Assembly (NCBI GenBank): GCA_014896555.1
Contig: JADBKC010000020.1
Coordinates: 1 to 32,795 of the forward strand
Reading direction: 5' to 3'
Origin: Caryophanales bacterium
GTDB lineage: Bacteria; Bacillota; Bacilli; Bacillales; DSM-4216
Length of the DNA: 32,795 bases
Below are positions 2,401 through 32,716 of the stretch, one piece after another; position 1 is the first letter of the stretch; each line of letters opens with the position of its first letter. Below the pieces are notes generated by a model that ran no database searches, had not been told where the DNA came from, and worked only from the letters and a program-made list of their open reading frames with translations. The position numbers and the translations under genes are program-made.

Positions 2401-3003
2401 TTAAGGGCGAAGGCCCCATTTTTCGATGATCTGTTCTAACTGTTGTTTTGTCTCGGCAATGGTTCCGTTGTTATGGATGACTGCATCCGCTTTTTTTACT
2501 TTTTCTTCAAGAGGCATTTGTGCCGAGATTCGAATCTCGGCATCCTCTTTATCTAAACCGTTTCGTTTCATCAGTCGTTCGAGCTGTATGCTTCCATCCA
2601 CATAAACAACGATCGTTTTATCCACCATCCATGTCAGTCCGCTTTCAAAAAGAAGTGGAATGTCAAGAATAACCGTTTGTTTTCCATCCCGAATGGCCTG
2701 CTCTTTCTCCAAAAGCATTTGTTTGCGGACAGCCGGATGTACAATTGAATTAAGTTGAAGTCTTTTTTGCTCGTTGCGAAACACGAGATCGCCGAGCTTA
2801 CGTCGGTTAATTTCCCCATTTTCCAATAGAATTTCTTTTCCGAATGCATTCACAATTTTGTTGTAAGCTTCTTCTCCAGGCTGAACGACAATCTTTGCGG
2901 CTGCATCGGCATCAATCACTGTATAGCCTTTTTCTTTCAAAAGGCTTGAAACCGTGCTTTTTCCGCTGGCGATGCCGCCCGTTAAACCGATGATGTGAGC
3001 CAT
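2401..3003 (-). CDS. coaE: Dephospho-CoA kinase
   Basis: CoaE phosphorylates the 3'-hydroxyl of dephospho-CoA with ATP, the last step of coenzyme A synthesis. The P-loop [12 protein letters not shown] is at the N-terminus, followed by the family's VIDADAAAK substrate motif, the DIPLLFE motif near the middle, and the [10 protein letters not shown] lid segment. The reading frame stays open to a TTG at 3006, but ATG at 3003 sits 6 nt after GGGGG and gives [10 protein letters not shown], so it is the preferred start (200 aa, normal). It lies 51 nt downstream of ytaF in the same direction and is probably cotranscribed with polA-mutM-ytaF. Confidence 0.95.
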
Positions 3004-3054
3004 CAACGTCCCCCTTTTCCATTCTTGTAACGTATGAAATAATGTGGATATCTT

Positions 3055-3696
3055 TTAACCAATTTTCCAAAATCCAATTAACATTAACAGCAGCCCGGGG
3101 AGAAACGCCAATCTTTGTACCCATCGCCTTTTGGCGAACACTGTCCCCATCTTCAGCCCAGCTGAAACGAATACTAGACTCATAATGGCAACCGATGCGG
3201 ATAATAAAACGGGAGAATAGCCGAGCATGGCTGCTCCCAATCCGGCGCCGAAAGCATCAAGGGATAAGGCTATTCCAAGCATGACCGCTTCCAAACCAGT
3301 AATCGTTCCTGATTGATCAAAATCCGCTTTTGTCGGCGTCTTCAAAATATTAATCACTAAACCAATGGACTTTAATTCCAGCTTAAAAATCGTCTTTTCA
3401 TGAGGAAGTTCTTCTTCCACATTTTGATGGCTGAGAAAAAGCGGAAAAAGTGCCCACGCTCCCAAACCAATCAAAATAATACCACCAATCAGCGATGCTG
3501 AATGAGGGGACAATATCTCGCCGAATAAGCGGCCAATCATCATGGCCGCCAACAAAGCCGCAGCTGAACAGCAAGAAAGAATCACGACAGACTTTAAAGG
3601 GAGTTTCATTTGTTTGATGCCATAGGCCATTCCAGTACTGAAATTATCAAGACTAACCGCAAACGCAAGTAAGAGTAAAGAAATAAATGATCCCAT
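3055..3696 (-). CDS. ytaF: MntP/YtaF-type six-helix membrane protein, sporulation-associated
   Basis: This 213-aa hydrophobic protein has two homologous halves. Each carries an aspartate motif in a transmembrane helix: AVSLDNFSTG near the N-terminus and ALSLDAFGAG past the middle. This is the pattern of MntP-type manganese exporters and of Bacillus YtaF. A hydrophilic linker of about 50 residues joins the halves. YtaF is linked to sporulation in Bacillus, but its substrate is unsettled, so transport of manganese or another cation is only inferred. ATG at 3696 has an AAGGAG SD 8 nt upstream. That SD lies inside a perfect 11-bp hairpin described separately. It sits between mutM and coaE as in relatives. 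Confidence 0.9.
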   Translation of the reverse strand: MGSFISLLLLAFAVSLDNFSTGMAYGIKQMKLPLKSVVILSCCSAAALLAAMMIGRLFGEILSPHSASLIGGIILIGLGAWALFPLFLSHQNVEEELPHEKTIFKLELKSIGLVINILKTPTKADFDQSGTITGLEAVMLGIALSLDAFGAGLGAAMLGYSPVLLSASVAIMSLVFVSAGLKMGTVFAKRRWVQRLAFLPGLLLMLIGFWKIG

Positions 3697-3701
3697 TGTG
3701 T

Positions 3702-3779
3702 AAGCTCCTTCCTATCTGCCTGAAAACAATATATGGAAGGAGCTTGCCCATTGTTCATTCGTTTTTACAAACGGCAAGC
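3702..3779 (-). promoter_or_regulatory. mutM-ytaF leader with two competing hairpins; one buries the ytaF SD
   Basis: On the minus strand, arm AAGCTCCTTCC (3735-3745) is perfectly complementary to GGAAGGAGCTT (3702-3712), giving an 11-bp stem with a 22-nt loop that contains the whole ytaF SD. Upstream, GCTTGCC (3773-3779) pairs with GGCAAGC (3742-3748). This enclosed region holds a small CGTTT-GTAA-AAACG hairpin with a GNRA loop. The segment 3742-3745 belongs to both long stems, so they cannot both be fully formed. No U-run follows, so control at translation rather than termination is the simpler reading. It resembles no riboswitch I recognise and is too small for yybP-ykoY. Confidence 0.6.
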
Positions 3780-3783
3780 CATG

Positions 3784-4602
3784 TCAATGCTGGCAGTTCA
3801 AACAAAGATGCGTACTTCGGCCAGCGACTTTTATTTTTTCGATAGGACGCCCACAAATCCGGCAAGGCTCCCCTTTTCTTGCGTACACGAACAGCTGCAG
3901 CTGGTACATCCCTTTCTCCCCTTGGGAATTCACATACGAGCGGACCGTGCTTCCGCCTTTATCGATGGCTTCTTTCAACGTAGCGATGATCTCCACTCTC
4001 AGCTTTTCTATTTCCTCGTCATTCAAATCCTGTGCTGTCCGCTCCGGATGAATCCCGGAGCGAAACAACACCTCATCGACATAAATATTGCCTAGTCCAA
4101 CTACCACTTTTTGATCTAGCAGGACTGCTTTAATCAATCTAGTAGTTTTTTTAAGCTCTTCTTTCAAAAAGTTGTATGTGAATTCATCAGAAAAAGGCTC
4201 CGGCCCTAATTGGGATAAAGGCGGATGAAAAAGCTCTTCCCCCTTTAAAAACAAATGAAACGTTCCAAATTTCCGCACATCTCTATACAACAGGTGCGTA
4301 CCGTCAATAAAGTGGAACACTAAATGTATATGCGGATCCAGCTTCATCTCCTCTTCCACGCGGTAGCGTCCTTCCATCCGCAAGTGCGATACAACGGAAT
4401 AGTCATCAAAATAGAAAATCAAGAATTTTCCTCGTCTCGATATATCATGAATCGTTTGTCCATTCAACGTTTTTCGAAAAGTGTCTGCGTCTGTGTTTTG
4501 AATCATTTTCGGCCAACGGATCGTGATGTCTTTTATCGTTTTCCCTTTTGTTAAAGGAAGCAATGTTCGCCTAATGATTTCTACTTCTGGCATTTCAGGC
4601 AA
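3784..4602 (-). CDS. mutM: Formamidopyrimidine-DNA glycosylase (Fpg)
   Basis: MutM excises 8-oxoguanine and formamidopyrimidines and nicks the strand by beta/delta elimination. The chain begins MPEMPEVE; after Met removal Pro1 is the Schiff-base nucleophile and Glu2 the general acid, so the start must be the TTG at 4602 and not the ATG three codons later. An AGGAGG SD lies 10 nt upstream. A C-terminal zinc finger reads CRICGRP...CLNCQ with the family's CxxC pairs, and the preceding helix-two-turn-helix region is typical. Length 272 aa is normal. It lies 23 nt after polA in the same direction, so repair synthesis and excision are coupled in one transcript. Confidence 0.96.
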   Translation of the reverse strand: MPEMPEVEIIRRTLLPLTKGKTIKDITIRWPKMIQNTDADTFRKTLNGQTIHDISRRGKFLIFYFDDYSVVSHLRMEGRYRVEEEMKLDPHIHLVFHFIDGTHLLYRDVRKFGTFHLFLKGEELFHPPLSQLGPEPFSDEFTYNFLKEELKKTTRLIKAVLLDQKVVVGLGNIYVDEVLFRSGIHPERTAQDLNDEEIEKLRVEIIATLKEAIDKGGSTVRSYVNSQGEKGMYQLQLFVYARKGEPCRICGRPIEKIKVAGRSTHLCLNCQH

Positions 4603-13011: not shown

Positions 13012-14145
13012 TTGAATCCTGAAAAGCTATATCGTATTCTACGCTTTTTTATTGTGGTTGGAACTGTTTTGCTTTTGTTGTACGCACTCTTTGTCGTGTC
13101 AAAAGTAACCTATCCGTTCATTATTGCACTGGCGATCGCTTTTTTGATCAACCCACTCGTGAATGTTCTCGAGAAGCGCTTAAAGTTCCCAAGACCTGTT
13201 GCGGTGATTGCCTCGATCCTTATTATTTTTGGAATTTTTATCGGTATAATTTCTTTACTGATTACAGAAATTGTGGCGGGTGCGAATTATCTGGCAAACG
13301 TAGTCCCAAAACAAGTGGAAACGATTGTCAAATACACGGAAAATTTTATTGCCAGCCAAATCATTCCGTTTTATGAACAAGCCTCAAGGCTGTTCAAAAA
13401 TTTGGACGCTAACCAACAGGAAACCATTTTAAGCAATATTCAAAATGCCGGCCAAAAAATTGCCACAAATGCCGGGGAGTTTTTAAAAAATTTCTTCTTA
13501 AAGCTTCCTGATTTAATTTCTTGGATTCCTAATGCTGCTACTGTTTTAATCTTTTCATTACTAGCCACTTTTTTTATAAGCAAAGATTGGGACCGCCTAA
13601 AAGGTCGATTTGGAAAATATATGCCAAATAAAGCACGTTCAAGCAGTGAACAGGTATTTGTGGACCTCAAAAAAGCACTTTTTGGTTTTATCCGCGCTCA
13701 ACTCACACTCATTTCGATGACCGCTGTGATCGTATTGATTGGACTTCTTATTTTGAGAGTTAAATACGCCATTACGATTGCTTTAGTTACTGGACTTGTG
13801 GATCTTATGCCTTACCTTGGAACCGGAGTGGTGTTTGTCCCGTGGATTATTTATGAATTCATTTCCGGGGAAGTTTCGCTTGGAATTGGTCTTTCGGTTC
13901 TTTATGTAATCGTCATTGCCCAGCGCCAATTTATGGAACCAAAAGTGCTTTCTTCCAGCATCGGCTTGGATCCTTTAGCCACATTGATCGCATTATTTGT
14001 CGGCTTTAAAGTCGTCGGGTTTTTTGGCCTCATTCTAGGACCGGTCGTTCTTGTCATCTTCAAGACTCTCCACCAAGCCAATGTATTTCAAGATTTATGG
14101 AACTATATCATGAAAGGAAGTTCGACAGACAAAAATGTCAGCTGA
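13012..14145 (+). CDS. ytvI: AI-2E/PerM family membrane protein YtvI, sporulation-associated
   Basis: This 377-aa membrane protein of the AI-2E exporter/permease family has hydrophobic helices near residues 10-50, 65-90, 150-190, 220-250, 260-300 and 310-355. The family signature region reads LVDLMPYLGTGVVFVPW and later SSSIGLDPLATLIALFVGFKVVGFFGLILGPV. The Bacillus orthologue is called a sporulation membrane protein; no substrate is known. The start is TTG at 13012, 11 nt after AAGGAG; no ATG is available nearby. It is the only plus-strand gene between 8 and 25 kb. Its stop codon falls within the loop of its own terminator hairpin. Confidence 0.92.
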   Translation: MNPEKLYRILRFFIVVGTVLLLLYALFVVSKVTYPFIIALAIAFLINPLVNVLEKRLKFPRPVAVIASILIIFGIFIGIISLLITEIVAGANYLANVVPKQVETIVKYTENFIASQIIPFYEQASRLFKNLDANQQETILSNIQNAGQKIATNAGEFLKNFFLKLPDLISWIPNAATVLIFSLLATFFISKDWDRLKGRFGKYMPNKARSSSEQVFVDLKKALFGFIRAQLTLISMTAVIVLIGLLILRVKYAITIALVTGLVDLMPYLGTGVVFVPWIIYEFISGEVSLGIGLSVLYVIVIAQRQFMEPKVLSSSIGLDPLATLIALFVGFKVVGFFGLILGPVVLVIFKTLHQANVFQDLWNYIMKGSSTDKNVS

Positions 14146-14166
14146 AAAAGCTGACATTTTTGTTTT
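14131..14166 (+). terminator. Terminator overlapping the ytvI stop codon (usable on both strands)
   Basis: A perfect 13-bp stem, AAAAATGTCAGCT/AGCTGACATTTTT (14131-14143 with 14149-14161), has a 5-nt loop and a following T-rich run. The ytvI TGA (14143-14145) is at the stem-loop junction. The A/T flanks make it usable for minus-strand transcripts from pyk as well. Confidence 0.88.
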
Positions 14167-31228: not shown

Positions 31229-32710
31229 GGACTCTCATCCCTTGCCATGACGGACGAATATGTATACCTTTTTTTACCATCCCTTGAGTTCAGACAGGGC
31301 ATAATAGATCGGAGTCCCGGACGATTGCTGTAAATATGGCACGTTATTCCGCGTGATCTCCGGCCAAAGACGGCGGACGCGTTGTTTCGCCTTGTTCACG
31401 ATCGTCTGTTTGGTGGATGCCGTCGACACCGTTTCCTCCGCCGGCTGCGACGATTCTTCTCCGAAACGACGTCCGAAAAGACGAATCCCATCCATCCGGG
31501 CAATCATTGCCTTGAAAAACGCCCCGAGTCCCTTGTCTGTCCAACTGCGGCGGTATTTCACCCGATACGCCAGCTGGCTCATCACGCTTTCAGCCCTCCC
31601 CATCGGATACATGCCCGTTGTGTCCACTCCTTGCTCCTTCAGCCATTCCCGGTAATCACGGATGCATCCCGGCATCGATTCGATCCGGTGGATCAAGGCA
31701 GCCAGTTGTTGTTCTTTCGCTTCGTCCCCCAGCGTGCCGAGGGCGCTGTTCAGTTCCACAAGCAACCCCTCTTCATCCTGCTTCGCCAGCTTTTGCCGAA
31801 TCGCCTGCCACCGTGGATGGCCCGAGAAGCATTGGCGCAACTCACGCGCCACGTGGAATCGATCCAATTGGAAGCAGACCCGTCCCTTGAAATACTCCCG
31901 GCACGCGGTAATCCATGGAGCGCCGTCCCCGTTGATGACAAGAAGATCCCGACACGGATCATAGGCATATTCGTTCATCAAAAATTCCTCGAAGCCTTCC
32001 CACACCTCCCTCTTGCCCTCATGGACGTAATGGCGCTGATTCACGAATTCGATCCGTGAGCCGTTGCGCTTCCACCCTTCGTGAACGGTCAGGATTTTGT
32101 CTTCCTTGGCCCGTTTGCCCTTCCCTTGGCGAGAGACAAACAGTCCATCGGCCTCCACAAACAGCACCCGTCCATATCGCTGGTCAACCGGGCAGTGCAG
32201 CGGAGCTTCGGCCTCGAGCACCAACTGGCGGATCGCCTCATGGCTCATCACCGGATACCCGACCATCTGGGCAAGCGTACAAGCCGCTTTGCGATAGGAA
32301 GAGCACTCCACAGCCAATCCCACCGCCGTTTCTTCTAGACAAGGGCTGATTGACTGCGATCCATCAAACGCTAGAAAGGAGTCAAGCAAAAACGTGTAAC
32401 GGTTTTGTTCTCGGTCTAAATAGTAGTTTCGCTCAAAGGTGACTTCGCCAAACAGGGTTTGAATCGTGGTGCGTCGTTTGTCTTTCAAGTGGTACCGGCG
32501 CTTGTCCCGAGTTTCCGCCAATTGTCGGTCGATGTCCTCCAACAAAGCCGTAAACAGCTCGGCGAAGGCGTTTTGCAAGGCTCGAAACAAATCCAGTTCG
32601 ATCTCTTTCCATGTCAACGAATTTGTGGTAAGATGTTGTTGAATATTCATAGGACTCTCTCCTCCTGTTTGATAGTGTTGTCAATAATCATCTTACCAGG
32701 GAGAGAGTCC
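31229..32710 (-). mobile_element. ISLre2-family insertion sequence, about 1.48 kb
   Basis: The element carries one full transposase gene. Imperfect terminal inverted repeats are visible: GGACTCTCATCCCTTG at the left (from 31229, plus strand) and GGACTCTC-TCCCTGG at the right (from 32710, minus strand), differing by one inserted base and a few substitutions. Length is typical of the family. Base composition is visibly richer in G and C than the flanks, indicating transfer from a higher-GC host such as Geobacillus. I see no matching target duplication (AGCGCTTTC left, TTTTTTCAT right), so the ends or the insertion history are uncertain. Confidence 0.7.
31274..32650 (-). CDS. ISLre2 family transposase (UPF0236)
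   Basis: This 458-aa transposase has the family's N-terminal region (LFGEVTFERNYYLD, SPCLEETAVGLAVECSSYRKA) and a central RNase-H-like core. Likely catalytic residues, by position in the conserved blocks, are Asp168 (LFVEADGLFV), Asp242 (VINGDGAPWI) and Glu354 (GRAESVMSQL); this triad is my inference. The C-terminus is intact, with no frameshift or internal stop, so the element may be active. ATG at 32650 follows AGGAGG with a 10-nt spacer. GC-rich codon choice (GCC, CGC, CTG, GTC) differs from the neighbouring genes. It points toward pepQ. Confidence 0.93.
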   Translation of the reverse strand: MNIQQHLTTNSLTWKEIELDLFRALQNAFAELFTALLEDIDRQLAETRDKRRYHLKDKRRTTIQTLFGEVTFERNYYLDREQNRYTFLLDSFLAFDGSQSISPCLEETAVGLAVECSSYRKAACTLAQMVGYPVMSHEAIRQLVLEAEAPLHCPVDQRYGRVLFVEADGLFVSRQGKGKRAKEDKILTVHEGWKRNGSRIEFVNQRHYVHEGKREVWEGFEEFLMNEYAYDPCRDLLVINGDGAPWITACREYFKGRVCFQLDRFHVARELRQCFSGHPRWQAIRQKLAKQDEEGLLVELNSALGTLGDEAKEQQLAALIHRIESMPGCIRDYREWLKEQGVDTTGMYPMGRAESVMSQLAYRVKYRRSWTDKGLGAFFKAMIARMDGIRLFGRRFGEESSQPAEETVSTASTKQTIVNKAKQRVRRLWPEITRNNVPYLQQSSGTPIYYALSELKGW

Positions 32711-32716
32711 TTTTTT
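32651..32716 (-). promoter_or_regulatory. IS end hairpin over the transposase SD; terminator on the opposite strand
   Basis: AGGACTCTCTCC (32651-32662) and GGAGAGAGTCCT (32700-32711) are a perfect 12-bp inverted repeat around a 37-nt loop. In transcripts entering from outside the IS (minus strand), the stem covers GGAGAGAGTCCT between SD and ATG and would block translation. A transcript starting inside the loop, where TTGACA occurs (32676-32681), would lack the first arm. On the plus strand the same stem is followed by TTTTTT and can act as a terminator. Confidence 0.55.

Follow-up and report, generated by a model that had tools for sequence, protein, structure and literature searches.

A Putative Transcript-Selective Translation Gate at the Sporulation Gene ytaF within a Housekeeping Operon of Bacillales

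The sporulation gene ytaF is trapped in a housekeeping operon, and its leader very probably serves as a transcript-selective translation gate, with promoter use and read-through silence both being predicted features. According to the proposed mechanism, the long read-through mRNA that runs from polA-mutM to coaE would carry both arms of a hairpin, which would fold the Shine-Dalgarno (SD) sequence shut and leave ytaF untranslated during growth. During sporulation, transcription in the mother cell would start inside the loop, from a sigma-E-type promoter that has the 5' arm of this hairpin as its spacer; the short mRNA from this internal promoter would be without the 5' arm, its SD would be freer and YtaF would be made. 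The modeling suggests that the apparent switch is one between two transcripts and not between two folds of the same transcript.

The window, meaning the entire stretch of 32,795 nucleotides that was analyzed (contig JADBKC010000020.1), holds these genes on its minus strand in the order polA-mutM-ytaF-coaE, with a gap of 87 nt between mutM and ytaF. The features are as follows, listed in the direction of transcription.

3784 to 4602, minus strand: mutM (formamidopyrimidine-DNA glycosylase), co-directional and upstream of ytaF
3742 to 3779, minus strand: upstream 7-bp stem, GCUUGCC (3779-3773) with GGCAAGC (3748-3742), broken in the sister genome
3752 to 3754, minus strand: predicted -35 core ACA, which precedes the -10 start by 19 nt, an offset identical in 89 of 139 leaders
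3735 to 3745, minus strand: hairpin 5' anti-SD arm AAGCUCCUUCC, in the predicted promoter spacer; covaries with the SD and is expected in read-through mRNA only
3727 to 3735, minus strand: predicted sporulation -10, CATATATTG in the window, CATATATTA in the sister genome and CATATACTA in most relatives
3718 to 3722, minus strand: putative transcription start in the hairpin loop, placed from the -10 position
3702 to 3712, minus strand: hairpin 3' arm GGAAGGAGCUU, which includes the ytaF SD AGGAG (3709-3705) and pairs with the spacer arm in most mutM-linked leaders
3055 to 3696, minus strand: ytaF, sporulation membrane protein YtaF (TIGR02840), model score 225.4 bits (cut-off 149.6)
2401 to 3003, minus strand: coaE (dephospho-CoA kinase), co-directional and downstream of ytaF, with its own SD

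The Hairpin and the Predicted Sporulation Promoter

The whole ytaF SD is contained in a perfect 11-bp stem on the minus strand, in which AAGCUCCUUCC (3745-3735) pairs with GGAAGGAGCUU (3712-3702), and the ATG follows at 3696-3694; a sequence-only reading of the window had proposed this stem, and it is found exactly where it was claimed to be. Among the inverted repeats listed for the 32.8-kb window this pair ranks first, and single-base shuffling of the upstream bases gave a perfect 11-bp partner for the ribosome-binding site (RBS) region just once in 20,000 shuffles. The fold of the 121-nt region is predicted at -30.4 kcal/mol compared to -22.7 kcal/mol for dinucleotide shuffles (z of -2.3), all fold energies given here being ViennaRNA predictions.

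An element that the sequence-only reading overlooked is a promoter-like ACA-N16-CATATACTA at window positions 3754-3727, the spacer of which is the anti-SD arm itself. Of 148 distinct leaders, 139 agree with CATATACTA at six or more of its nine positions, and 89 of these also have an ACA that starts exactly 19 nt before the box; the final base of the -10 is G in the window and A in most relatives. Mother-cell sporulation promoters take the form of a CATAnnnTA -10 preceded at about this distance by a short -35. Box matching alone cannot tell sigma-E from sigma-K; element lengths and spacings for promoters of both are given in PMC517825. Sigma-E was chosen as the sigma factor because the literature reports ytaF as sigma-E-dependent: in C. 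perfringens its expression requires sigE (PMC9332280), and sigma-E control in B. subtilis is cited in the same paper. Deletion of ytaF in C. perfringens gave no sporulation phenotype (PMC9332280). The genome of the window encodes a sigma-E gene that scores above the family cut-off, and the element is most readily interpreted as a mother-cell promoter of sigma-E type, for which use, sigma factor and start are all predicted.

Conservation and Covariation of the Spacer with the SD

The mutM-ytaF gaps of relatives, comparison of which had been suggested as a covariation check, were drawn from whole genomes as well as from named contigs; here the SD stem is kept and covaries, and the upstream 7-bp stem is broken in the sister genome. 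mutM lies upstream of ytaF in 151 of the 178 distinct leaders examined. Across these 151 mutM-linked leaders the spacer-SD duplex has a mean energy of -17.9 kcal/mol, compared to -9.2 kcal/mol with shuffled spacers; it reaches -12 kcal/mol or lower in 130 and is weaker than -10 kcal/mol in nine. The test that matters is that of partner swapping, because a promoter spacer need not match the SD of its own gene. When partners were swapped among 82 mutually dissimilar leaders, the leader's own spacer-SD pair was stronger than the average of the swapped pairs in 69 leaders (-17.6 versus -13.2 kcal/mol), and by the longest Watson-Crick run the own pair was better in 56 of 81; the corresponding P values, about 1e-11 for energy and 5e-5 for helix length, overstate the strength of the result, since related sequences are not independent.

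In an alignment of 81 leaders, changes are seen on both sides at all eight tested pairs, double-change cells number 47 compared to 25.5 in shuffles, and 78.5% of cells are paired compared to 54-65% when the arms are slid. The number of pairs with change, and of further pair types, was not clearly above shuffles in this alignment. These column counts understate the pairing because MAFFT misregisters the 3' arm in many rows, and it is for this reason that the alignment-free swap tests were added. Together, the covariation of spacer and SD constitutes good rather than conclusive evidence of a pairing constraint, and by sequence comparison the SD stem and the sporulation promoter element are conserved together across the order Bacillales.

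Operon Context

In every mutM-linked locus long enough to be checked (67 of 67), coaE is found downstream of ytaF at a median gap of 30 nt, compared to one of 24 such loci without mutM. An intrinsic terminator in the mutM-ytaF gap was considered and rejected, as none of the 151 gaps scanned holds a terminator-like site. CoaE is listed as essential in B. subtilis (PMC10968225), and taken with the constant position of coaE and the lack of terminator-like sites this suggests that transcription of coaE during growth probably must run through ytaF; if so, silencing ytaF without halting transcription would call for a block at translation. As a separate observation, B. subtilis without the mutM/mutY/ytkD system has CoaE raised 9.5-fold (PMC10968225, Table 1); given the mutM-ytaF-coaE order (window 2401-4602), altered read-through from the mutM locus would be one possible cause of this rise.

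Leaders without mutM upstream offer a comparison, for which a scan of the collection by YtaF supplied 13 loci, mostly of a separate ytaF lineage. A duplex of -12 kcal/mol or lower is found in seven of 27 leaders without mutM versus 130 of 151 with it, a comparison confounded by the fact that the leaders without mutM largely represent separate lineages. Most of them keep a promoter-like CATA-type -10 but have no arm, and in many the upstream neighbor is a large divergent gene; co-directional armless cases (L031, L187, L204) and a few arm-bearing ones (L189) are also included. More telling, as far as sequence goes, are the rearranged leaders. L106 and L114 have their promoter farther upstream, and the arm has shifted along with it; in L202 and L203 the arm is upstream of the -35. 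In all four the arm lies upstream of the putative start.

Predicted Accessibility and Alternative Explanations

Across 149 leaders, opening the RBS is predicted to cost 17.1 kcal/mol in the long mRNA versus 7.9 kcal/mol from the internal start, and the cost is lower from the internal start in 144 of them; in the window, where +1 was assumed to be 3720, the values are 14.4 and 7.7 kcal/mol. This unfolding cost was used in addition to simple SD accessibility because the latter rose just modestly from the putative start. Residual structure is predicted at the SD of the internal-start mRNA (27% open in the window). The structure that persists in the short transcript could be taken to mean that the hairpin damps translation of ytaF in every transcript, its position in the promoter spacer being incidental, in the manner of the small damping hairpin at the sigG RBS (PMC5942855). 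Such constant damping is unlikely: the 5' arm is upstream of the putative start, so a short transcript cannot include it, the opening cost drops by 9.2 kcal/mol on average, and the arm is mostly missing from leaders outside the mutM-coaE context.

Alternatively, the inverted repeat may act at the level of DNA as an operator that overlaps the promoter and binds a dimeric regulator, as it does cover the promoter and compensatory changes would likewise preserve the symmetry of a palindrome. The arm spacing, however, is variable (the distance from the -10 start to the SD is mostly 22-34 nt, reaching 61 nt in outliers), which disfavors an operator, and the SD invariably makes up the 3' half. The 81-leader alignment also has frequent G-U pairs, which are tolerated in RNA and not favored in a palindromic operator, and in L202 and L203 the arm is upstream of the -35; an operator is thus highly improbable.

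The sequence-only reading had taken two overlapping stems, one of which covers the SD, for mutually exclusive helices of a riboswitch or RNA thermometer. Both stems are present in the window, the second being the perfect 7-bp GCUUGCC/GGCAAGC stem, which has four bases in common with the 11-bp SD stem. Mutual exclusion does not hold up, as the upstream stem is lost in the nearest relative and the two stems of the window are largely compatible with each other: the SD hairpin is predicted at -20.9, the upstream hairpin at -13.5 and both at once at -28.3 kcal/mol. In the sister genome (L002) the upstream arms read GUCGGCC and GGCGAGC with two of seven pairs broken, and the 8-bp core of the SD stem, CUCCUUCC/GGAAGGAG, is intact; by this comparison the upstream stem is judged to be incidental. 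As for the GNRA-capped mini-hairpin that it was said to enclose, this can be drawn as GUUU-GUAA-AAAC but is absent from the minimum-energy fold.

A response to temperature is at odds with the predicted opening of the SD in the long mRNA, which is 0.5% at 37 °C and rises to just 2.5% at 70 °C. The idea of a manganese riboswitch fares no better: nowhere in the window does an Rfam family attain its gathering score, with none plausible at the ytaF leader, and the yybP-ykoY covariance model has no match in the window. This riboswitch controls MntP-type exporters, and YtaF does share the Pfam Mntp domain; it scores 225 bits against a cut-off of 149.6 with the sporulation YtaF model but 29.9 against 214 with the MntP model, and a manganese exporter link was therefore rejected in favor of a sporulation equivalog. 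No aptamer-like block was noticed among the conserved blocks of the leader, which are promoter boxes and stem arms. With its upstream stem broken in the sister genome, a ligand- or temperature-responsive leader that toggles two helices can be set aside as extremely improbable. The earlier interpretation is thus supported in part, being right about a real, conserved and covarying hairpin that hides the SD and not supported as to a riboswitch or thermosensor.

Related Systems and Other Loci

The closest described case is that of T4 gene e (lysozyme), together with I-TevI, in which long early transcripts bury the SD in a helix, and late promoters within the region of the 5' strand yield late transcripts that are without this strand and are translated (PMC3014915). 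The likeness of ytaF to this case is a predicted one, and the systems differ in that gene e has phage late promoters whereas ytaF has a predicted sporulation promoter within an order-wide, covarying bacterial element of a housekeeping operon. For B. subtilis sigG (spoIIIG), the available text of PMC5942855 describes a large hairpin proposed to block translation of spoIIG read-through mRNA, which cannot form in mRNA from PsigG; this resembles what is predicted for ytaF, likewise a sporulation gene. Unlike ytaF, sigG has a forespore sigma-F/G promoter and follows an operon that is itself a sporulation operon, and its arm is not reported as a covarying promoter spacer in that same text. The principle is hence already known from T4 gene e and sigG, and ytaF would by analogy be a new and unusually well conserved case; no earlier description for ytaF was found in a search of openly licensed papers.

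Of 299 genomes, 71 contained matches to the architecture pattern, and the reversed control pattern gave one match. Beyond ytaF, several matches fall before spoVIF (Pfam SpoVIF) directly after a gene which, from its sequence, we take to be gpsA, and a few precede cotD-type coat genes. At position 1500, the loci L213-L216 and L238-L241 are gpsA-spoVIF junctions that combine a CATA-type box with an anti-SD spacer arm, as at ytaF, and L230, L233 and L235 have CotD-type coat genes preceded by a CTCCTT-CATA-AAGGAG pattern. The mean duplex energy of spoVIF leaders is -13.0 kcal/mol where gpsA was found upstream (n = 39) and -8.6 kcal/mol where it was not (n = 18), in a sample that has much scatter and was partly seeded by the pattern search itself. 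As at ytaF, a sporulation gene comes right after a housekeeping gene and has a CATAnnnTA-type box whose spacer includes an anti-SD arm; unlike ytaF, the arrangement is confined to part of the lineages sampled, many of which have no spoVIF arm (the window's own genus included), and the class of mother-cell promoter is probably different. The gpsA-spoVIF pattern may be regarded as a lead, at the level of sequence, that the design recurs. Whether endospore formers repeatedly use anti-SD hairpins built into promoters to silence sporulation genes in vegetative operons (ytaF, spoVIF, sigG), with promoter spacers evolving under an RNA-pairing constraint, is evenly balanced.

Two further inverted repeats were observed in the window. 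A 458-aa ORF on the minus strand, with its ATG at 32650, is directly preceded by a perfect 12-bp repeat, AGGACTCTCTCC/GGAGAGAGTCCT (32651-32711), which includes the GGAGGAGAG SD of this ORF. The ORF presumably resembles an ISLre2-type transposase; a hairpin that hides a transposase SD in read-through mRNA would be a familiar trait of insertion sequences. The other, at 14129-14163, is a perfect 15-bp repeat with a 5-nt loop.

Implications

The proposed gate offers a testable explanation for a sporulation gene that sits inside a housekeeping operon and whose product is nevertheless not made during growth, and it would also account for the resemblance of the ytaF promoter spacer to an anti-SD sequence. 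Should the arrangement prove general, RNA-seq coverage during growth would make such genes look more highly expressed than they are, and an anti-SD spacer may be usable as an extra signal when searching for sporulation promoters.
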